Under the pieces are notes generated by a model. It saw only the letters and a program-made list of their open reading frames with translations, made no database searches and was not told the DNA's origin. Source: Pseudophaeobacter arcticus DSM 23566 (GTDB taxonomy: Bacteria > Pseudomonadota > Alphaproteobacteria > Rhodobacterales > Rhodobacteraceae). From it: a DNA stretch of 64,000 nucleotides. Positions 41,381 through 58,483 of the stretch are shown here, in pieces. Every line of letters starts with the position of its first letter. The first letter of the stretch is position 1. The stretch covers positions 1,752,729-1,816,728 of the forward strand of contig NZ_KI421507.1 of the NCBI RefSeq assembly GCF_000473205.1, written 5' to 3'. The translations under genes were made by a program, and so were the position numbers.

Positions 41381-41602
41381 ACTTGATATTGCAGTAACCG
41401 GAGGACCCCGGATGATCCCGGAAGAAGCCATGTTAAAAGGGACTTTCAACGATGTATAAAGGGGGGTGAAACCCCAAAGAGTTTGTCTTTCAACCCTGGC
41501 CTGGATCGCTCAGACCGGGGTATCAGGTGATATTGAGGCACTTCGCCTTTCAAACGCCCCTCCCCTACTGCGGCCCCTAAAAATAGCGCCTGGCGGGCCC
41601 GA
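41381..41602 (+). repeat. Imperfect long direct repeat, copy A
   Basis: A segment of about 220 bp starting ACTTGATATTGCAGTAACCGG and ending TAGCGCCTGGCGGGCCCGA, roughly alignable over its length with copy B at 46095-46325. Identity is high at the ends and low in the middle. It abuts the truncated IS110 gene at 41609. Both copies are preceded by TGTCCCGCTAC. Confidence 0.7.
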
Positions 41603-41608
41603 AGCGTC

Positions 41609-42037
41609 CAGCAGGCCGCGCAGCATATTGCTGAGCTGGGTCCGCTGCCGCACGACCAGATCGCGTGCACGATGGAGCAACAGCACGCCCTGCTGCTCTT
41701 CGGTCTTGATCGCCACGAAGCGCATTGTTGGGCGCGTGACAGCCTCGCAGATTGCTGCCGCGTCGATGACGTCCGACTTGCCACGTTTGACATAGGCCCT
41801 CACGTATATCGCAGGCATCAGGCGGACGTCATGGCCCGGCTTCCGGAATTGCCACGCCCAGTGGTGACCTGATCCACAGGCCTCCATGCCGATGAGGCAT
41901 GGCTCAAGGCTCTCGAAGAACTGCAAAAGCTGTGCACGCCTAAGTGACTTGTTGAATGCAACGGCCCCGTCCGCTGTGATCCCATGCACCTGAAAGATGT
42001 TCTTGGCCAGATCCAGACCGACTGTTGTAACCTGCAT
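41609..42037 (-). pseudogene. IS110-family transposase, N-terminal fragment
   Basis: The first 143 codons encode the DEDD/RuvC-like N-terminal half of an IS110 transposase: VTTVGLDLAKNIFQVHGI, CLIGMEACGSGHHWA, VRLMPAIYVRAYVKRGKSD and DVIDAAAICEAVTRPTMRF. The homology stops at about 41609, where the frame runs into repeat copy A; the C-terminal Ser-containing domain is missing, so it cannot be active by itself. Confidence 0.85.
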
Positions 42038-44175: not shown

Positions 44176-44751
44176 GTGTTTTCTGATTTACAAATAATAG
44201 AAGCGAGTATTTCGAATGACATCGCTGACAATGAATTAATCCTCTCGCTTGGCGTCCAAAACGTTATTCGTGCCATGATTGTGGCAGAGGACAGGCGATT
44301 TTTTTCTCATTGTGGTGTGGATTTCAGGGGAATTACGAGGGCGGTTCTTAAATATTTGTCGGGAGGTAGGCTTGAAGGAGCGAGCACAATTGAGCAACAA
44401 TTTGTGCGCACAGCGCGCCGACGCTACGAAATCACCTTTGCTCGGAAATTTACCGAATGCGTATTGGCGGTTATTGTCTCCTCACGTCATAGCAAAGCGC
44501 ATATTGCCTACTCATACTTAGAGGTTGCATATTTTGGATGGCGTGCAAACGGTGTTCAACAAGCCGCTCGGCGCTTGGGAATTGATCTTCTGCATGCGTC
44601 AGAGGCTGAGGCTGCTACGCTTGCAGCCATGTTAAAAGTGCCGATGCCACGCTTCCCGTCTCAACGCTATGTTACACGTCATGCCCAGCGTGTGGAGTAT
44701 ATTTTAACAAATTGGAATGAAGTAGGAACACGAAATGGCTTTACTTTCTAA
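44176..44751 (+). CDS. Stand-alone GT51 transglycosylase-domain protein
   Basis: A 191-residue protein consisting only of a peptidoglycan-glycosyltransferase (GT51) core: AMIVAEDRRFFSHCGVDFRG (the catalytic-Glu EDxxFxxHxG motif, about residues 34-53) and RLEGASTIEQQFVRTARR (about 65-82; second conserved motif, here GASTIEQQ instead of GGSTITQQ). No signal peptide, membrane anchor or transpeptidase domain is visible, unlike MtgA or PBP1. Start is GTG at 44176. The 3' end overlaps the next gene by 17 bp. Base composition is AT-richer than the surrounding chromosome. Confidence 0.75.
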   Translation: MFSDLQIIEASISNDIADNELILSLGVQNVIRAMIVAEDRRFFSHCGVDFRGITRAVLKYLSGGRLEGASTIEQQFVRTARRRYEITFARKFTECVLAVIVSSRHSKAHIAYSYLEVAYFGWRANGVQQAARRLGIDLLHASEAEAATLAAMLKVPMPRFPSQRYVTRHAQRVEYILTNWNEVGTRNGFTF

Positions 44752-45421
44752 TTGGATCCGAGGGATGAGCTCTAGCTACCCTGATCCAACCTCATGGAAG
44801 GACCAAGGGGATTTGGCTAAGAAAGATGTCTTCCGGTTTACTCGCCTCTGGCTGTGTGAAGGAATTCCTTACGCGTTCCGAAACAATGCCGCAGCTTATG
44901 AGCTTGCACGTGAGAACTTCGGAAAAGTGCTGGGGGAACATCCGAGGAACGTTAGCATGACTGGCAGCGGTCGTCTAGGCTTCTCACTAGCGGGAACCAA
45001 ATTTGGCGCTGCCTATAATCCTGATAAATCTGACGTCGATCTATTTTTAGTATCGGATACATGGTTTGAAAAAATGACCGAAGACGCGGAGCTTTTCATC
45101 GCCAGGTTATCCGGAGGTCTCGCGGTCCCTAGAAATGAATTCGAAAAGAAATATTGGCCTGAAAACGCCCAGCGCTTGAAGCAAGGAATAATCAGAGGGC
45201 ACGTAAATCAGCACTATATACCGAATGTAGAGAGATATAAGGCTACACGTTCTTGCTACAAAGCTTGTCGAGCGTTTCAAGCCACCCTTGGTGGCGAGGA
45301 GGGAACAGCTGAGCCCAAAAAGGTAAGTGTTAGAATTTATCAAAATTGGGCTCGTGCAGAAAGCCAAATCGGTGGATCATTGCTCTTTGCCCTAAAGCAA
45401 ACCGGCCATGATATAAGTTAG
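44735..45421 (+). CDS. Nucleotidyltransferase-fold protein partnered with the GT51 gene
   Basis: A 228-residue protein with the NTase pattern: GSGRLGFSLAGTKFG (residues 77-91) followed by KSDVDLFLVS (about 97-106), i.e. the G-S and DxD metal-binding elements. No third domain is recognised; the C-terminal half is helical and basic. It overlaps the GT51 gene, has AT-rich composition and rare codons for this genome, and lies inside a repeat-bounded island. Could be a CD-NTase-like or tRNA/sugar nucleotidyltransferase-like effector; I cannot assign it. Confidence 0.65.
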   Translation: MALLSNWIRGMSSSYPDPTSWKDQGDLAKKDVFRFTRLWLCEGIPYAFRNNAAAYELARENFGKVLGEHPRNVSMTGSGRLGFSLAGTKFGAAYNPDKSDVDLFLVSDTWFEKMTEDAELFIARLSGGLAVPRNEFEKKYWPENAQRLKQGIIRGHVNQHYIPNVERYKATRSCYKACRAFQATLGGEEGTAEPKKVSVRIYQNWARAESQIGGSLLFALKQTGHDIS

Positions 45422-48292: not shown

Positions 48293-50383
48293 TTAGGTTC
48301 CCGTTGCTTTCATAACCGCCTGCACCTTTTTGATGGCCGCAGGTCCGGTATCATTGACGATGACACGATCCCCGTTCAGGTAAATCAGCCGGTCTGCCAT
48401 TTGCATAAACGAACGATCAGCAGTGGTGATCAGAACGGTCTTTGCACCGCGCTGATTTTCCAACCAATTCTTAAATCGATCACGGCGGGTCTGTGATAGG
48501 CCGTTAGTCGGTTCTGAGAATAAGAATATTGATGACTGCCGTGCCATGCTCCGGGCCAGCGCAATTGACTTGATCAGCTCGCTAGGTAGGCCCGCCACAA
48601 ATTGAGCGCTCAGGCGCGTATCACATCCTTCCGGCATGGCCTTGATTTCTTCAGAGATGCCAATGTGCTCCAATGCCGCAAGAATCTCCGCCTCACTCAG
48701 TGCCGGGGCAGCCAGGCGAAAATTTTGAGCCACGGTCCCGTGGAAGAGCTGAGGCGTGTAAGTTGAATAGGTTATTGATTTGCGCAGTTCATCCCGTGCG
48801 ATCTGACGGATGTCGATACCATCATGCTCTATTACGCCGGAGGAGGGTGACGCAAACCCGGTGGCCAAATCCAGTACCGCTGTCCGGCTGGCGGTATCCC
48901 GCCCCATGATTACTACAAGCTCTCCCGGTGTGCAGTCGAAACCGGCTGCTGTGAGCAGCGCGGGATTCAGCGGATCTGGGCGATGGTTCACCCCCTGGAA
49001 TGAAATTGCACCGCGCAGAGTTTTCTGATGAGACTGGTTCAAGCCCAGCTCTACTTCCTCTGTCAGCGATAACACCTGATCGGCCTGCTTCTGGCTCTTG
49101 CGAAATCCGGCAATCTGCCCAAGCGAAGATTGAAAGGCTTGAACTGGCGCGAGAACCTTGGAAACAAGGGCGATAGAGGCGATCAACGCACCAAAACTAA
49201 TACTGCCTGCTACCGCGCCATGTGCACAAAGAATGATGGCTCCGACCGAACCAAGTGCAACAATACTCTGCGACACGGCCTGAATCAGGTTGCGCAGCTG
49301 ACGAGCACGAGCGGTTGCTGTCTCCGATGCTTCCGCCAGCGGCATACAGCGGCGCAACCATTGTTCTTGCATGCCAAGATTGGCCATTGTGCGCTGATGC
49401 TCCACGGCATCCTGGATCACCGTTGAACTTGCTCTGCTGGCCTCTGCCGCGGCATGTTCCAGTCGCTTCTGGAATGGCATCGCAAGAGCCCCGATGCACA
49501 TCAGAAGTACCGCAAGCCCAAGTGTAAAAAGTCCGACAGAAGGGGCCAGATAAGTCAGAACTGCAAAGAACATCAGCGCAAACGGCAAGTCGATCAAAGT
49601 TGTCATCACCTGGCCGACGAACAGCTCTCGCAAGGATTCGAATTGACGGAAACGCGCAATTTGCTGACTCACACTGGACTTTTGCAGCTGCGGCAGCGGC
49701 AGGCTCATCAGCTTTCCAAAAAGCGCTACCGCTAGGGCGCGCTCCCCTTGCTGACCGACATAGGCCAGCGCCCTGGTTCGGACACTGCGGAACAGGAAAT
49801 CAGACGTTGCCAGAATAACTACACCCGCGACCAATGCCACCAGCAAGTCCACCGAACCGGAAGGAATCACGCGATCATAGATGGCCATGATCAAGAGCGG
49901 TGCCAGCAAGCCCAACAGGTTGGTCAGGAAACCCGCCAACAACAGGCCGGGTATCATCTGGTGCAGCGCCGCAAATGAAGCTCCAACCGTGCGATGCTCC
50001 CGGTGTGCAGGCTGATAACTGAATTTCTCGATCCGGATTACTGTGCAGGGATTGACCCGTGCTTCCAGAGTGCCAGGGTTTCCCCCATTCAATCCCGCAA
50101 TTTGTAGCATAGCTCCTTTGCGGCGCAGAGCTACGAAGCAGCTACGATTGGCTGGGATAACCAGCGCGGGGCAATCTGCATCGGTGATCTCGCTCTCTAG
50201 ACAGGCTACACGGGTATAGGGAACATCCAGATTCTCAAGAGTTTGGATCAAACCGTCAGGATCAAGCGTTTCAGTAAGATACGGGAATGCCTCTGCTATC
50301 GCTTCGTCGTTGCTCTGCCAGCCTCCGACAAGCAGCAGTTCCTTCAACAGTGCACCGGCGTTTTGAGTTGTGACCAGGCTCAT
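48293..50383 (-). CDS. Type I secretion ABC protein with C39-like domain and degenerate ATPase
   Basis: A 696-residue protein: N-terminal C39 peptidase-like domain without the catalytic Cys (residues 8-110), a six-helix membrane domain (136-420), then a nucleotide-binding domain whose motifs are eroded. The Walker A position reads GRDTASRT (Arg where Lys is expected), the signature reads AGLPSEL, Walker B reads FLFSEP (Ser for Asp) and the H-loop region reads TADRS. The Q-loop TPQLF is kept. ATG at 50383 overlaps the stop of the next ABC gene. Likely heterodimer partner of that protein. Confidence 0.88.
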   Translation of the reverse strand: MSLVTTQNAGALLKELLLVGGWQSNDEAIAEAFPYLTETLDPDGLIQTLENLDVPYTRVACLESEITDADCPALVIPANRSCFVALRRKGAMLQIAGLNGGNPGTLEARVNPCTVIRIEKFSYQPAHREHRTVGASFAALHQMIPGLLLAGFLTNLLGLLAPLLIMAIYDRVIPSGSVDLLVALVAGVVILATSDFLFRSVRTRALAYVGQQGERALAVALFGKLMSLPLPQLQKSSVSQQIARFRQFESLRELFVGQVMTTLIDLPFALMFFAVLTYLAPSVGLFTLGLAVLLMCIGALAMPFQKRLEHAAAEASRASSTVIQDAVEHQRTMANLGMQEQWLRRCMPLAEASETATARARQLRNLIQAVSQSIVALGSVGAIILCAHGAVAGSISFGALIASIALVSKVLAPVQAFQSSLGQIAGFRKSQKQADQVLSLTEEVELGLNQSHQKTLRGAISFQGVNHRPDPLNPALLTAAGFDCTPGELVVIMGRDTASRTAVLDLATGFASPSSGVIEHDGIDIRQIARDELRKSITYSTYTPQLFHGTVAQNFRLAAPALSEAEILAALEHIGISEEIKAMPEGCDTRLSAQFVAGLPSELIKSIALARSMARQSSIFLFSEPTNGLSQTRRDRFKNWLENQRGAKTVLITTADRSFMQMADRLIYLNGDRVIVNDTGPAAIKKVQAVMKATGT

Positions 50384-52083
50384 GCCACGTCCTTTCGCTG
50401 CTCGGCTGCGGTTTGTTCGGCATGGGCGTCCGCGTCCCAATCTGCAACCTCATCCCCCACCAAACAGGTCAGTTTGCATTCCACATCAGCAAGACCCTTC
50501 ATGCGGGGATCAGGGCTGTTCATCAAGATCGTCGGCTTTGGTGACAAGGAGGCCAAACACTCCGCCAAGTCCTCCCGCTCTGCGGTATCCAGTACCGCAG
50601 TCGGTTCGTTCAAGAGCAGGATGCGCGGACGTAACGCCAGCACACGTACCAGCGCAATCAACTGCCGGTTAACGGGATCGTTTTCAAAAGCGCTGCCAGA
50701 GCCTAGCTTTGTATTATACCCCATTGGCAGTCGATGAATCCGCTTTTCCAGCCCCAGCTTCGCCGCAAACTCTTTCGCCCGGGAAATATGCGTCTCATCG
50801 CCAAAAGCGCTTAGATTTTCTAATATCGTGCCCGACAGAATGGCTGGATCGTTTTCCAACACAACAATGGCATCCTGACCCCGCCTCGATACGAGTGACT
50901 GCGCTGAAACTCCGTCTATCAGCACTTCACCGGCTGCAGGACTACAATGCCCAGTTACAGCATCGTAAAGTGCCTGTATCTGCCAAATCGCATTGCTGCT
51001 GACCAAGCCGATCTGGCCTGGCGCCAATACCATGGAGCTTACTCCCGAGCGTTCGGAATCCCCGCTTCCTCCCTGGAGCCGGAGGTTGCGCAGGGTGATG
51101 TTTCCTTCGATCAGAGCTGCACACTTTGTTGAGACCGGGTCAATATCCAACGCATCAATTTCACGCAGCTTTCTCCAGGACAGAGCAACGCTCTCTGACT
51201 GCACCCATAGTGTCATCAATTTGGTCAACGGCTGTACAATCCGCCCGTTCAACAACATACATGCAGCCATTTCAGCGATCCCGATCTGCTGACGGATAAC
51301 CAAGAAAGCGCCAAACAGTCCCATAGCAGCCACAGAAACCTGCCCAAAGACAGCCCCGAAATTCTGAGCGAAGCCGGAAAACCGGATCAACCGATGGCTG
51401 AGATCAACTGTTTGATCTTCCAGCAGCTCAAACCGCCGCTTCATCTGGCGCTCCATCCGGTTGGCTTTGACGGTTTCGTTGCTCGACAGCACCTCGGACA
51501 AAAAAGCGTACCGGCGGCTGTCTAGCGATTTTCTCCTGTCAAATAGCGCCCATTGAGCGCGTTTCATTAACAGGGAAAACACCAGCACCGCCACCAGGCC
51601 TGTGATTGGCACAAGAACCAGCCAGCCTCCGATCAATGCCACCATCACCGCGAAAACCAGCATGAATGGCAAGTCAATCAACAGGGCATGGTTCTGCCCT
51701 GCGTGATGGTCACGCAGCTGAGCAATGGCGGAAAATCGATCAATATATGCCGACGCTGAATCCCGCGAAAATGCCTGAGTGTTGGCGTGTAATATCCGGC
51801 TCGCAAAACGCCGATAATTCGAGACTGCTGCCTTTTCCGCAGCCGCGTTCAGTAATGTCAAACGGCTCCACCGTAGCACTAATTCAACTCCCGCGCTCAC
51901 TAGGAGGAGGACAGTTAACATACGCAGTGTTTCAACTGACTGAAAGGGGATCACACGATCAAAAATCAAAAGAATAGAGATGGGAATAACTAATGCGACG
52001 ACGTTAAGTGACAGCGATGCAGCCAGAAGAGGCAGCTTCACGGCCAGGGAACTGTCACGCCCTTTGAAAGTCTTTTGTTCCAT
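50380..52083 (-). CDS. Second type I secretion ABC protein, degenerate ATPase
   Basis: A 567-residue ABC exporter half: six-helix membrane domain (about 10-320) and a nucleotide-binding domain lacking a P-loop (GLVSSNAIWQ where GxxGxGKST is expected, about residues 359-368), with a poor signature (GSGSAFEN), Walker B LLLNEP (Asn for Asp) and no switch His (MNSPDPR). The D-loop TAVLD is kept. No C39-like domain. ATG at 52083 is preferred to GTG at 52113. First gene of the three-gene secretion operon; divergent from the substrate gene. Confidence 0.87.
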   Translation of the reverse strand: MEQKTFKGRDSSLAVKLPLLAASLSLNVVALVIPISILLIFDRVIPFQSVETLRMLTVLLLVSAGVELVLRWSRLTLLNAAAEKAAVSNYRRFASRILHANTQAFSRDSASAYIDRFSAIAQLRDHHAGQNHALLIDLPFMLVFAVMVALIGGWLVLVPITGLVAVLVFSLLMKRAQWALFDRRKSLDSRRYAFLSEVLSSNETVKANRMERQMKRRFELLEDQTVDLSHRLIRFSGFAQNFGAVFGQVSVAAMGLFGAFLVIRQQIGIAEMAACMLLNGRIVQPLTKLMTLWVQSESVALSWRKLREIDALDIDPVSTKCAALIEGNITLRNLRLQGGSGDSERSGVSSMVLAPGQIGLVSSNAIWQIQALYDAVTGHCSPAAGEVLIDGVSAQSLVSRRGQDAIVVLENDPAILSGTILENLSAFGDETHISRAKEFAAKLGLEKRIHRLPMGYNTKLGSGSAFENDPVNRQLIALVRVLALRPRILLLNEPTAVLDTAEREDLAECLASLSPKPTILMNSPDPRMKGLADVECKLTCLVGDEVADWDADAHAEQTAAEQRKDVA

Positions 52084-52254
52084 ACCGGCCCCATACCACA
52101 CACTCTGGTGCACAAGACATTGAAACCCCTTAAGCCTTTATCAATTTAGCAGCATGCAGTGCGTAAGATTGAATTAAAATTCAAGCTATGCGTGTGAGAT
52201 TGCATTAACCGTTTTGTGTTAATGAAAAAATCAAATGTATTTCCGGAGGTTCTG

Positions 52255-55200: not shown

Positions 55201-55842
55201 ATTCGATATTTCGAGAATTACGGGCATGCAGGTCTGAAACTTGAATGGGAAGGCCCGGATTCGAACGGCCGTGAGACGGTACAAGCCGATCAGGACATCG
55301 CCGTTGATGTGAACGGCACATTGGATGTGGGCATCGGGCTAGAAGGTGCGAGTGACAGTGCGACCGTAGGAATTGAAGGCCTGCCCCGTGATACGATCTT
55401 GACTAGTGGCGACAATGCTCTTGTAACAGACGGCGGGCCAGTGGATCTTTCGGGTTGGAACATAAGCGCGCTCGAGGTTTCTCCACCACCCGGTTACGAA
55501 GGGGAAATCAAGGGGGAGATAGTTGTTAGCGACACTGCCTTCAATGGCGCACCTGTCACCTTCAGCTCTGATTTCACAATACCGGTTGGAGACACAACGA
55601 TTACGCCCGAACCTGTTTCTCAGGGTGAAGAGGGAATCGGTCCCGAAAGCAGCATGAGCTCTGGAGACGCTGCGTGGGATGCGTGGGATGCGTTTACAGA
55701 ACTAAGCGAGGAAGGCGGCCAAGATTACGATACCTCACAGGAAGATGTTCTGGAAGATGTTCTGGCCGAGCCAGTTATTGTTCAAGAGTCGCAAGAGATT
55801 TCTCAGATCAGCACTGAAACCTATGAGCGAACAGATTGGTAA
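52255..55842 (+). CDS. Large secreted protein with cadherin-like repeats and two PA14 domains
   Basis: A 1195-residue acidic protein, the probable substrate of the adjacent secretion genes. In order: a hydrophilic, low-complexity N-terminus (1-170); two nearly identical cadherin-like repeats (about 177-261, 271-355); a lectin-like beta domain (VENGSFENFSLETG, 364-515); a third cadherin-like repeat (519-600); and two copies of a PA14 domain plus beta module (PA14 at about 608-745 and 869-1004). No signal peptide and no RTX nonapeptides; the Ser/Glu-rich C-terminus would hold the type I signal. ATG at 52255 follows GGAGG. Adhesion or glycan binding is inferred. Confidence 0.82.
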   Translation: MSGKAHHSINQPHNLIKDQKDKETFAEGLSKGAQATPEDQSRSTLHTGEIQEGDASERSAFDGYANFTVQDEETLSTQEAPGDSSQDAALLLPHDGSPVFFDAESPQDTGRDADDGQIVARSHQIPNEGTEHAIDVGGAQAPSAQQTTQTANRSAGDGSPEPLKENNAPESLSLSNSTIAENAEGAIVGNLSAEDQDAGDSHSYSVSDDRFEVVEGQLKLKDGVSLDHEAEAEIDVQVTVIDSAGTSHTEDFSIEVTDQNDAVTGVELTGSTIAENAEGAIVGNLSAEDQDAGDSHSYSVSDDRFEVVEGQLKLKDGVSLDHEAEAEIDVQVTVTDSAGTSHTEDFSIEVTDQNEAPGGLTLEGESENLVENGSFENFSLETGRWRAFKEDDSGGWDTDTSMEVWDNLGRTDASEGEQHLEMDSGRGVDSISQTIQTNEGQVYDLGIDLRERLTNGTDTVEVYWNDNLVGELDPDSKEWTTFEMQVIGTGEDRLELREAADQNDSYGALVDNIRVTAAQNVVAENVRGAIVNRVNFEDPDGDDSHMFEVSDDRFEVANGFLRLKETEALDFEDASEIVVSVTVTDTGGLSASETFTVEVADTADLTLSSGFHAQYFDMNQQLSSLEDIDWGAEPTHQELVTEINYENGSDSFWEDGSKDTFAVEICGAVQVDEGGIYRFDLGGDDGAQLVVNGKLIVENDGLHAYQTKSGEVQLDPGTHHIEVRYFENYGHAGLKLEWEGPGMDGPELVTAPDISEAQTVSGMPIAMNVAHPEIELSETTNLVLDGLPAGTVVEAGGKTLMVEGGSADITGFDTEMLTITPPYDYSGQVDATLTMTDSNATIGNTVIRQPITINVNEAQITVPTAELVTGFRADYLDVDQRIGKLDDVNWDADPTHQDHQAEIDYKNSSESFWESGSKDTFATRIQGQVTVEEGGSYTFFTSADDGVVVFANGQEVVKDDGNHRYREDSGRIELEPGTHDIEIRYFENYGHAGLKLEWEGPDSNGRETVQADQDIAVDVNGTLDVGIGLEGASDSATVGIEGLPRDTILTSGDNALVTDGGPVDLSGWNISALEVSPPPGYEGEIKGEIVVSDTAFNGAPVTFSSDFTIPVGDTTITPEPVSQGEEGIGPESSMSSGDAAWDAWDAFTELSEEGGQDYDTSQEDVLEDVLAEPVIVQESQEISQISTETYERTDW
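52782..53318 (+). repeat. 282-bp tandem duplication inside the adhesin gene
   Basis: Bases 52782-53036 and 53064-53318 are identical except for one T/C difference (Ile/Thr). The 282-bp period equals one 94-residue cadherin-like unit. Near identity at synonymous sites points to recent duplication or gene conversion. Confidence 0.95.
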
Positions 55843-55981: not shown

Positions 55982-56533
55982 CTAACCTGCCTTGACGGCA
56001 AGGTGCTGACGCAGCTCCTGAAGGGTTTTTCCCAAGGCAATTTCCATTGCAACCCCATCTGTGGGATCCGGCAACTGGGACATCATCTTATTGTATACCC
56101 ACAATGTTTCTAGCAGGTGCGCCTCTTTAGACATCTCAATTCCGTTGTTCGCATATTCCTCGGTCACAACCCCACTACAGAACATCAAACGCATAGAGTC
56201 GGCAGGGATAACGTGACCTGGCGATCCAAGGCTTGATTCCGTTCGTCCACTTGGACCGCCTCCTTGCTCCGGCTCAATAGGCTGTGCGGGCTGTTCGCTA
56301 CTAGGCAGCGGAATCGACATAGGCCCCTCACCTGTCAAAACCCAAGATGCCGAAATGCCCAAATGGGTACTTATGGCGGTTAGAAATTCACTTCCAACAG
56401 CCCTATCACCGCCAATATAGTTCTGAATCGTACGGTAACTGACACCCGTTCTTTTTGATAAATCTTTAATAGTCAAAGACTTACACTCACACACCTCGCG
56501 AATTCTCTCCGGTACACCCAATTGTTCACCCAC
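55982..56533 (-). CDS. Prophage repressor, XRE-type helix-turn-helix
   Basis: A roughly 183-residue protein with an N-terminal HTH (IREVCECKSLTIKDLSKRTGVSYRTIQNYIGGDRAVGSEFL) and an uncharacterised C-terminal half, transcribed away from the early genes. It presumably keeps the prophage silent by binding the palindrome at 56548-56559. GTG at 56533 is the likely start; the open frame continues across the operator and early promoter but without homology. Confidence 0.8.
   Translation of the reverse strand: MGEQLGVPERIREVCECKSLTIKDLSKRTGVSYRTIQNYIGGDRAVGSEFLTAISTHLGISASWVLTGEGPMSIPLPSSEQPAQPIEPEQGGGPSGRTESSLGSPGHVIPADSMRLMFCSGVVTEEYANNGIEMSKEAHLLETLWVYNKMMSQLPDPTDGVAMEIALGKTLQELRQHLAVKAG
56357..56368. 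promoter_or_regulatory. Second operator-like palindrome inside the repressor gene
   Basis: GCCCAAATGGGT differs by one base from the reverse complement of the main operator ACCCATTTGGGT. It lies about 190 bp away, inside the repressor coding region, and could serve looping or autoregulation. May be coincidence. Confidence 0.4.
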
Positions 56534-56537
56534 CTTA

Positions 56538-56566
56538 TTGACACTATACCCATTTGGGTGTAATGT
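56538..56566 (+). promoter_or_regulatory. Prophage early promoter with embedded operator
   Basis: TTGACA (56538-56543), a 17-bp spacer and TAATGT (56561-56566) read toward the transposition genes. The spacer contains the perfect palindrome ACCCATTTGGGT (56548-56559), placed so that repressor binding blocks polymerase. The repressor start is at 56533 on the other strand. Confidence 0.8.
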
Positions 56567-56609
56567 GAGTATGCAACGACACGATACAAGGCCGCAATGC
56601 GAGGGCAGT

Positions 56610-56894
56610 ATGACAAAACAAGATAAAATATTCCAGCCCGGGACCATCCTGCATGAGGTGATTGTGGGTGCATTTCGATCTTCGGGGTCAAGTTTCGAGG
56701 CTTGGTGCCGCACAAACGACGTCAAGCCAAGCACCGCCCGCACAGCCACCTACGGGCAGGCTGGAGGAGAAGTGGGCAGCGCTATGCTGGAACGCATCAT
56801 TGATGCCGCTGGGCGGGAGATGATCGAAATGGCCTATTCCAAGCGAGTGATCCGTGAGGCCGCAAAGCTCGAAAATGCACGGGGTGGAGCATGA
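56610..56894 (+). CDS. Small prophage early protein, probable DNA-binding (Ner-like position)
   Basis: A 94-residue protein that is the first gene after the early promoter. The segment SFEAWCRTNDVKPSTARTATYG has the look of a helix-turn-helix, and the position is that of Ner in Mu. ATG at 56610 is preceded by GAGGG; the frame is open to 56538 within the promoter. Function by position only. Confidence 0.7.
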   Translation: MTKQDKIFQPGTILHEVIVGAFRSSGSSFEAWCRTNDVKPSTARTATYGQAGGEVGSAMLERIIDAAGREMIEMAYSKRVIREAAKLENARGGA

Positions 56895-56959
56895 ACCCCC
56901 TCCCGTCCCCCACAGCTCAACCCGTCCCCTGCGCCTGCTTGCAGTCGGTTGAGCCACTA

Positions 56960-56996
56960 CCCCAGCGACACCGTGGATGGGTCGCTGGGGGCTTTT
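56960..56996 (+). terminator. Terminator- or attenuator-like hairpin in the early operon
   Basis: Perfect 10-bp stem CCCCAGCGAC/GTCGCTGGGG with an 11-base loop followed by GCTTTTG. It lies between the first early gene and the rest of the transposition operon, so early transcripts must read through or restart. Confidence 0.65.
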
Positions 56997-57061
56997 GCAA
57001 CACAGTCGCCACTCGCGAAGTCGGGTCCCGGCTCCGTCCTATTTTGGGCGGGCTGGGGCCA

Positions 57062-57178
57062 ATGGATCCGGACTGGTCCCTGACAGGTTCAGAACTCCTG
57101 GACGGCATCATCGGGGCGATCTGCGTCTTCGCCCTGCCCGTCCCCTCTTATTCATTGAGTTTCTGCAATGACCGATAA
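57062..57178 (+). CDS. Short prophage ORF, possible membrane peptide
   Basis: The reading frame from ATG 57062 encodes 38 residues with a hydrophobic stretch (LLDGIIGAICVFALPVP); its stop overlaps the following start. A longer frame from ATG 56891, overlapping the previous stop, would give 95 residues but crosses the hairpin at 56960-56996 and has poor composition. Weakly supported. Confidence 0.35.
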   Translation: MDPDWSLTGSELLDGIIGAICVFALPVPSYSLSFCNDR

Positions 57179-57470
57179 CTTCACAAGCCAGCGCACCTCC
57201 CTCGCCCCTGTTGCCTCCGCACTAGCAAGCGCCACGGCCGAGTACGCAACAAACCGAGCTGCTTCGGAGGAAGCCCATTTCGCTTTGAGCGAGGCTCGCC
57301 TTACAGGCGCTCAGAATGTGAGCGCACTCGCGGATCAATCTGACGCAGCGATCGAAGCCATGAGCGCCGCCCAGGAACAGATCGCCAACCTTATGGCGGA
57401 CCTCAAAGAGCAAGGTGTTCTCGACGGTTTCTACGCCTTCGCCGCAGCCCAAAACCGGCACCAGACCTGA
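57168..57470 (+). CDS. Hypothetical prophage early protein
   Basis: A 100-residue Ala/Ser/Gln-rich, probably all-helical protein (coiled coil from about residue 20 to 85). No family recognised. The stop forms TGATG with a following ATG, and the gene belongs to the early operon. Confidence 0.65.
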   Translation: MTDNFTSQRTSLAPVASALASATAEYATNRAASEEAHFALSEARLTGAQNVSALADQSDAAIEAMSAAQEQIANLMADLKEQGVLDGFYAFAAAQNRHQT

Positions 57471-57592
57471 TGCCCGGCGCGCAGATCATACGAGGCCCCT
57501 TCTGGCCAGGTCCGCGCATCCAAACTCACAGCCATGTCGCACAGAACGACAGGCCACAAGCAACTGAACCCCATTTCACTGGAGCATCCACA

Positions 57593-58483
57593 ATGACCCC
57601 TCCAAATTGGCAGAATACTCAATCGTTGCCGGTGGCAGACATCCAGGTGGAAGAGCGCCTGCGGATCGCCTCCAAGCCAGCGGTGGCCAGCATTGTGTCA
57701 TCCATTCAGGAAGTCGGCAGCATCCTGCAACCCTTGTTGGTGCGCCGGATCAAAACCGGCTATCGCCTGATGGACGGGCTGCACCGCCTGACCGCCGCGA
57801 AGCAGGTCGGCCTGAAAGAAGTGCCGGTCAAGGTGAGCGAATGCACCAATGACCAGGCCATCCGAATTGAGGTTGACGCCAACGTGGCCGGCGCACCGCT
57901 CACGCCTTTGGATATGGCAGTGTTTTTGGCCGCCCACAAAGAGCTGTACGAGCGGGAAAACCCCGAAGCGGCGCAGGGAAAGGCCGGTGCCCATGGCCGG
58001 TGGAATGCAACGGACATAATGTCCGTTGCATCTTTCAGCGCCAATGCGGCGGAAGTTTTTGGCAAGGGCGACCGCCACATTCGCCGCCTGATCAGCGTCG
58101 GTGAGAAGCTGTCCAAAGCTGAGATCGACCTTTTACGCAAAGCACCAAACAGGGTGCAGTTCATAGACCTGGAACACATCGCCAAATGCGGCGCACAAGC
58201 CGACCGCAGTGCAATCTGCGCCGCGCTGGGAGCGGGTGAAGCGAAAACCGCCAAGGAAGTTCTGGACCGCAAAAAGGCCCCAGGCGCGGCGGTGCTGTCG
58301 CCGCTCGATCAGCAGATTGCGAAGCTCAAAGACGCCTATTCGCGCGCTCAGAAAAGCGCCCGCCGGGAGTTCGTCCGGCTTCATAGCGACGAGCTGATTG
58401 AGCTGATCCATGAAATCAGCGCCGAGGAAGAGGGTGCCGCCGAAGTGGTCTCGTTTGCCAGCAAACGGGAGGCGGTCCAATGA
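57593..58483 (+). CDS. ParB/Spo0J-like prophage protein
   Basis: A 296-residue protein with a ParB N-terminal domain: LPVADIQVEERLRIA, VGSILQPLLVRRIKTGYRLMDGLHRLTAAKQ (contains the GxHR-type CTP-binding box as DGLHRL), then VKVSECTNDQAIRIEVDANV and a helical DNA-binding part. ParB-like genes next to muA are common in alphaproteobacterial Mu-like phages. ATG at 57593 with GGAG is preferred; ATG at 57470 would give 337 residues. The stop overlaps the transposase start (ATGA). Confidence 0.85.
   Translation: MTPPNWQNTQSLPVADIQVEERLRIASKPAVASIVSSIQEVGSILQPLLVRRIKTGYRLMDGLHRLTAAKQVGLKEVPVKVSECTNDQAIRIEVDANVAGAPLTPLDMAVFLAAHKELYERENPEAAQGKAGAHGRWNATDIMSVASFSANAAEVFGKGDRHIRRLISVGEKLSKAEIDLLRKAPNRVQFIDLEHIAKCGAQADRSAICAALGAGEAKTAKEVLDRKKAPGAAVLSPLDQQIAKLKDAYSRAQKSARREFVRLHSDELIELIHEISAEEEGAAEVVSFASKREAVQ

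Follow-up and report, generated by a model that had tools for sequence, protein, structure and literature searches.

In the 64,000-nucleotide stretch of Pseudophaeobacter arcticus DSM 23566 analysed here (contig NZ_KI421507.1, positions 1,752,729 to 1,816,728; hereafter the window), two adjacent minus-strand genes encode ATP-binding cassette (ABC) proteins, ABC2 and ABC1, followed by the gene of an HlyD-type adaptor and faced by the divergent, plus-strand gene of a large cadherin/PA14 protein upstream of ABC2. Both nucleotide-binding domains (NBDs) of the pair have lost the motifs for ATP hydrolysis, and these losses are shared by the homologues, in which the NBDs are under purifying selection. 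Moreover, the module is strictly linked, its ABC and HlyD genes are co-inherited, and a single protein in the genome bears the C-terminal tag of the large protein. Judged from sequence, the pair is on balance probably a conserved, non-hydrolysing translocator, and one that probably works in a manner not known for ABC pumps.

Motif positions were called from alignments with intact relatives and with HlyB, and HMMER against HlyB gave the same ABC2 register. A first-pass annotation of the window had claimed that neither ABC protein has a usable P-loop, that the signature is lost in both, that the Walker B Asp is replaced by Ser in ABC1 and by Asn in ABC2 and that the H-loop His is missing from both, all of which was confirmed by alignment of the NBDs with HlyB (Table 1). 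Beyond these claims, the Q-loop Gln is also lost, being replaced by Tyr in ABC1 and, with differences between alignments, by Glu or Asn in ABC2. Walker A Lys and LSGGQ are missing from both composite ATP sites of the pair; among the residues marking ATP hydrolysis (Walker A and B, signature and H-loop), the Walker B Glu is retained in both proteins. Misalignment hiding a displaced P-loop was rejected, as a free search for GxxGxGK[ST] found no match in 73 ABC1 and 82 ABC2 homologues; a loose LSxG[QE] string occurs anywhere in 0 of 73 ABC1 and 3 of 82 ABC2 proteins. In line with the six-helix membrane domains ascribed earlier to both proteins, PF00664 matches ABC1 with 83.5 and ABC2 with 72 bits, and AlphaFold models predict long helices consistent with a six-transmembrane (TM) exporter fold and a C-terminal NBD, so that the ABC fold appears to be retained in both. 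The corresponding PF00005 matches are weak (40.3 bits for ABC1 and 28.6 bits for ABC2 at a cut-off of 25). Structural superposition of the whole ABC1 chain with VIA-align resulted in a root-mean-square deviation of 17–19 Å, the domain arrangement being off (predicted template modelling score 0.51), and only its NBD match was therefore used.

For assessing conservation of the losses, the best 120 matches each of ABC2 and ABC1 were inspected, among which the clade of the window accounts for 82 ABC2 clusters (41–100% identity, including the window's own protein) and 73 ABC1 clusters (44–98%), with the named ones belonging to the Roseobacter group; the matches not tallied are P-loop-bearing relatives, fragments and distant ABC proteins. 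With the query added (83 and 74 rows, respectively), Walker A Lys is found in none of the ABC2 rows, Walker B Asp in two and H-loop His in one, the Q-loop position being Glu in 77 rows and Gln in none and the Walker B Glu being kept in 81. Among the ABC1 rows, the H-loop His is absent throughout, the Walker B Asp remains in 4, the Q-loop Gln in 14 and the Walker B Glu in 66. The Walker A position of ABC1 is Arg in 72 of 74 rows and Lys in one, and its P-loop Arg-Thr is conserved at 97% (R) and 79% (T), which makes this P-loop a conserved Lys-to-Arg variant and not noise. The lost motifs are replaced by new conserved stretches, among them FExDPVNRQLIAL and SPDPR in ABC2 and RTAVLDL and ATADRS in ABC1. 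Ratios of nonsynonymous to synonymous substitution (dN/dS, Nei-Gojobori) were calculated for 15 locus pairs, four of them outside the window's clade, and 20 of 30 NBD values were usable, with dS frequently above 1. Of these, 17 lie between 0.056 and 0.132, and the remaining ones are 0.028, 0.203 and 0.324, the latter stemming from the closest pair; the TM domains (TMDs) and HlyD are likewise under purifying selection. Being conserved across the family at low dN/dS, the motif losses exceed chance, and strain-specific decay of the pair is ruled out.

The four-gene module is complete in 34 of 38 Roseobacter-type loci, the other four (L013, L016, L020 and L025 in our numbering) being cut by contig ends. 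In the window as in 37 loci, the ABC1 frame starts before the ABC2 frame ends (38 of 38 pairs), the overlap in the window being four bases. The gene of the large protein lies divergently from the ABC genes in 36 of 36 cases. Of the gene families outside the module, none is found in more than 6 of the 39 neighbourhoods, and the Roseobacter-type neighbourhoods lack any further conserved export gene. A third ABC gene was also considered as a module part and rejected, other ABC proteins being encoded nearby in 4 of 39 neighbourhoods (L015, L032, L042 and L045). Over 37 loci, window included, the distances of ABC1, ABC2 and HlyD correlate at 0.95–0.98 (r 0.976 for the adjacent ABC1 and ABC2), which is what joint inheritance would give. 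The HlyD protein scores 252.7 bits against TIGR01843, above the curated cut-off of 208.65, in line with an intact cognate adaptor as previously annotated. ABC2 is present on eleven Phaeobacter plasmid records; in the two copies read, on pGal_A255 and pP24_d, all four annotated module genes are open, and neither these copies nor the window pair contain internal stops. This ABC2 type is carried by three of 12 genomes of the genus, that of the window among them, as separated by scores of at least 722 versus at most 343 bits. Taken together, the losses common to 73 ABC1 and 82 ABC2 clusters, purifying selection on the NBDs, linkage and co-inheritance and the open plasmid copies strongly support the earlier view that the intact, overlapping frames are not in simple decay; homologues with canonical motifs beside an inactivation confined to this strain are not what was found.

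The large protein of the window shows no GGxGxD match, as would be typical of an RTX-type substrate, and instead ends in a conserved C-terminal tag. Among the 28 complete Roseobacter-type substrates, window included, 23 end with YERxDW and five with near variants (L011, L017, L040, L041 and L046), and both plasmid-borne substrates terminate in YERMDW. GGxGxD occurs once each in the substrates of L013, L024 and L026 and not elsewhere among the Roseobacter-type substrates, several of which are truncated. A DNA pattern for tag plus stop has one occurrence in the 5.05-Mb genome, at the large gene of the window, which rules out several tagged proteins in this host. From the distant loci fetched the YERxDW tag is absent, and some substrate-like frames there hold RTX repeats (L085 and L088). 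On pP24_d (L211, 9489–19532), the large protein with the same tag is annotated with 3347 amino acids, almost three times the length of the window's protein.

Going beyond the first-pass annotation, the pair is one heavily eroded branch within an extensive family of type I secretion ABC proteins encoded in pairs; in none of the 60 pairs aligned from this family does either half contain LSGGQ, and the other motifs have eroded to widely differing extents. A broad ABC2 model (A3) detects comparable pairs not only in further Alphaproteobacteria but also outside that class within the same phylum, with named relatives including Thalassospira, Terasakiella, Kordiimonas and Magnetococcales. The 38 distant loci read with flanks represent ABC2-ABC1-HlyD modules, with HlyD in frame in 36, and natural ABC2-ABC1 fusions were found in four of them as well as in L089 from the family search. 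The fused chains (L089, L176, L186, L187 and L195) comprise about 1307–1484 amino acids, and the latter four possess Walker A Lys in both halves and LSGGQ in neither. In L195, a second HlyD-like frame lies across the fused ABC gene from the first, and in L189 the two ABC frames are not adjacent but separated by about 1.7 kb.

Sixty pairs from hand-picked loci, window included, were aligned (most Roseobacter loci, L086 and L087 were omitted for reasons of size; a complete ABC1 NBD is lacking in L189, leaving 59). The alignment with intact relatives also omits L006, L071, L073, L075, L082 and L093 (contig ends, or ABC proteins that are single or unresolved), as well as the second ABC frame in L032. 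LSGGQ was found in none of the 60 ABC2 and 59 complete ABC1 NBDs, compared to LSxG[QE] in 14 of 14 intact exporters, and Walker A Lys is lost from ABC1 in five pairs (window, L009, L014, L026 and L200) and from ABC2 in 24. Basal ABC2 proteins retain Walker A and B and mostly show the signature [LI]PxG[IV]xQR. Among the best 120 basal ABC2 matches listed, signature positions 2, 4 and 7 are invariably Pro, Gly and Gln, respectively, a uniformity arising partly by construction, since the search was seeded with 15 of the least eroded ABC2 proteins already bearing such signatures; Walker A Lys is kept in 120, Walker B Asp in 120, Walker B Glu in 115 and the H-loop His in 79 of them. The full-length tree, in effect unrooted and omitting ABC1 of L087 and both proteins of L094–L096 (same stretches as other loci), separates ABC1, ABC2 and intact exporters by branches with SH-aLRT (Shimodaira-Hasegawa-like approximate likelihood ratio test) values of 96, 99 and 84, respectively. 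In a tree from TMD columns (60 ABC2 rows and nine intact exporters, ABC1 excluded; a quick search with several long branches), ABC2 still stands apart from the intact exporters (SH-aLRT 99), contradicting a grouping by artefact of the eroded NBDs. Parsimony on this tree, which has many weak forks, gives 12 changes each for Walker A Lys, H-loop His and Walker B Glu and 5 for Walker B Asp in ABC2, making site loss in ABC2 look recurrent. We infer that the signature was altered early in both halves, that ABC2 sites were then lost repeatedly, and that Roseobacter H-loops and signatures eroded further later on, many of these proteins keeping the ABC1 P-loop, which the window's clade would have lost too.

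As roles for the pair, the first-pass annotation had proposed work with an ATPase supplied elsewhere, secretion by another energy source or service as a scaffold, all of which recur among the readings weighed here. Given the gene adjacency and the natural fusions in distant relatives, ABC2 and ABC1 may form an inner-membrane heterodimer. Together with its own HlyD and a TolC-type outer component encoded elsewhere in the genome, it would constitute a dedicated type I secretion module exporting the divergently encoded cadherin/PA14 protein, and the NBD-like domains would act as fixed, non-hydrolysing docking domains for HlyD and the substrate, possibly via the YERxDW tail of the latter. Energy might be derived from the inner-membrane ion gradient and from folding of the substrate outside the cell, for which the cadherin repeats could serve as an extracellular ratchet; for RTX proteins, such a folding ratchet has reportedly been described (Bumba 2016). 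We regard a dedicated translocator with docking NBDs powered in this way as a serious possibility that stays short of probable, and the combination of ion gradient and extracellular folding as energy source is put forward tentatively. Candidate coupling residues are two TM6 carboxylates of ABC2 conserved in the window's branch. Glu271, in the first turn of TM6 (predicted helix 269–310), is invariant among the rows of the window's clade and also in the 11 further Roseobacter-type rows, the position being Ala, Thr or Val in 12 of 14 intact relatives. Glu297 is invariant in that clade too and is kept by 10 of the 11 further Roseobacter-type rows, L044 having Ala; of 49 basal rows, 33 carry Gln here. 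For ion coupling, precedents exist among ABC exporters, as the relevant passages of two reports describe LmrA without its NBD as a secondary transporter, TM6 Glu314 being required in LmrA (PMC6155054), and MsbA transport as proton-coupled (PMC4979069).

Several points weigh against this mechanism. HlyB-type secretion is described, in the pertinent part of PMC11026475, as powered by the ABC transporter, and open-licence PMC yielded no reports on secretion, expression or energetics of any family member. The TM6 carboxylates change only about four times each on the tree, too few for relating TM6 acids to ATPase loss, and Glu271 is also found in L166, which retains Walker A, Walker B and H-loop residues. 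In addition, the retained Walker B Glu and the conserved Lys-to-Arg P-loop of ABC1 could permit residual nucleotide binding, and the host's intact type I secretion ABC proteins could act as energy suppliers.

The latter leads to the main rival explanation, a mixed ring of several engines in which the dead heterodimer would sit around HlyD as a passive, substrate-specifying member, ATP being hydrolysed by an intact HlyB/LapB-type dimer encoded elsewhere. A study of the HlyB system is said to assign three ABC transporters to each system. The HlyB/HlyD structures 7sgr and 8dck hold six HlyB chains, and the host genome encodes intact type I ABC-HlyD sets at L214, L215 and L216, with an OEP-family gene adjoining L215, and an intact ABC pair at L212. 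However, the pair comes with a co-inherited HlyD of its own, a third such ABC exporter gene is missing next to the module in both plasmid copies that were read, and the distant relatives are themselves ABC2-ABC1-HlyD modules, so that we consider a mixed ring rather unlikely. Loss of transport altogether, with the pair remaining as a membrane scaffold or sensor which holds HlyD or controls the surface protein, would fit the missing catalytic motifs and the single tagged protein in the genome, yet appears improbable in view of the purifying selection on TMDs and HlyD, the operon layout of type I secretion and the lack of another conserved export gene alongside.

A similarly low, slightly smaller chance is given to residual ATP use, ABC1 with its modified P-loop (GxDxAxRT) and Walker B Glu binding and perhaps slowly turning over nucleotide without a classical signature. 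The conservation of both features in the ABC1 rows and the retention of Walker A and B in basal members with altered signatures are consistent with it, whereas both halves have also lost the signature, the Walker B Asp and the H-loop His, and ABC2 is devoid of any P-loop. Ordinary gene decay or a sequencing artefact, which the motif loss itself might suggest, is already contradicted by losses common across the family, dN/dS well below 1 and the open frames in window and plasmids, and is extremely improbable.

The use of ATP defines ABC exporters, and to our knowledge the known asymmetric ones all keep one working site. This was also the position of the first-pass annotation and agrees with the passages on degenerate-site exporters in two reviews (PMC7756269 and PMC8277102, the latter on type I secretion), which treat exporters with one degenerate site and describe no pair having lost both. 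Like the heterodimers TmrAB, TM287/288 and TAP, the window encodes two different half-transporters with degenerate motifs; unlike these heterodimers, which keep one canonical ATP site according to part of PMC7756269, the pair has none. With HlyB and LssB/LapB exporters (TIGR03375, TIGR01846; HlyB 7sgr and 8dck) it shares the fold, a C39-like N-terminus of ABC1, placed by alignment to HlyB, the HlyD partner and a large multidomain putative substrate, and HlyB 7sgr is the best PDB sequence match of the ABC1 family profile (2.8e-69). In contrast, the window system is encoded as a pair, both NBDs are without ATPase motifs, the substrate has no GGxGxD repeats, and both ABC proteins, although closest to type I secretion ABC models, score far under the curated cut-off (334.6 bits for ABC1 and 240 bits for ABC2 against 693.1 for TIGR03375, the LssB/LapB subfamily). 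Four basal relatives tested reach 397.6–514.3 bits, also below this cut-off. LmrA and MsbA provide ABC exporter membrane domains with ion-gradient coupling as precedent, the energetic likeness being only proposed here, and differ in that they also bind and hydrolyse ATP. A search of titles and abstracts within open-licence PMC returned no description of a paired family with variant signature.

Table 1. Coordinates of the module and its diagnostic residues within the window.
Feature	Position	Strand	Remark
HlyD-type periplasmic adaptor, 442 amino acids	46962..48290	-	TIGR01843 match
ABC1, 696 amino acids from ATG	48293..50383	-	N-terminal C39-like region, exporter TM domain, degenerate NBD
ABC1 H-loop position, Ala655	48419..48421	-	His replaced by Ala
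ABC1 Walker B, residues 619-624, IFLFSE	48512..48529	-	Asp replaced by Ser, Glu kept
ABC1 signature position, residues 599-603, LPSEL	48575..48589	-	in place of LSGGQ
ABC1 P-loop position, residues 494-502, GRDTASRTA	48878..48904	-	Lys replaced by Arg
ABC2, 567 amino acids	50380..52083	-	exporter TM domain, degenerate NBD
ABC2 H-loop position, Pro524	50512..50514	-	His replaced by Pro, within conserved SPDPR
ABC2 Walker B, residues 488-493, ILLLNE	50605..50622	-	Asp replaced by Asn, Glu kept
ABC2 signature position, residues 468-472, NDPVN	50668..50682	-	within conserved FExDPVNRQLIAL
ABC2 Walker A position, residues 359-368, GLVSSNAIWQ	50980..51009	-	P-loop gone
ABC2 Glu297	51193..51195	-	later in TM6
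ABC2 Glu271	51271..51273	-	first turn of TM6
Divergent intergenic region, 132 bases	52084..52215	.	between ABC2 and large protein; putative role, from layout only
Putative cognate secreted protein, up to 1208 amino acids	52216..55842	+	cadherin repeats and two PA14 domains
C-terminal tag YERTDW plus stop	55822..55842	+	only tag-pattern match in genome

The module is flanked by an IS110-type transposase on one side (41510–42037, minus strand) and by a helix-turn-helix regulator and a ParB-like protein on the other (55982–58483), which suggests a mobile region around it. A 228-amino-acid protein (44735–45421, plus strand) gave no match with Pfam and PADLOC; a motif around GSGRLGF and SDVDLF makes it look like a nucleotidyltransferase. 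Elsewhere in the same genome, the adjacent ABC pair of L212 (C6:624500–638000) comprises 714 and 966 amino acids with intact motifs, and a weakly HlyD-like gene lies beside it.

The finding draws attention to a large family of paired type I secretion proteins whose tested members fall under the NCBIfam cut-offs. With a selected pair in which both sites are lost and relatives at intermediate stages, it becomes testable how much ABC export needs ATP hydrolysis and whether ion gradients, folding or borrowed engines can drive protein secretion. That a selected ABC pair moves a large protein without any ATP hydrolysis, driven by ion gradient and folding as a secondary or passive protein translocon, is an unlikely though not negligible outcome; if true, the intermediate states of such a conversion would be preserved in living relatives.

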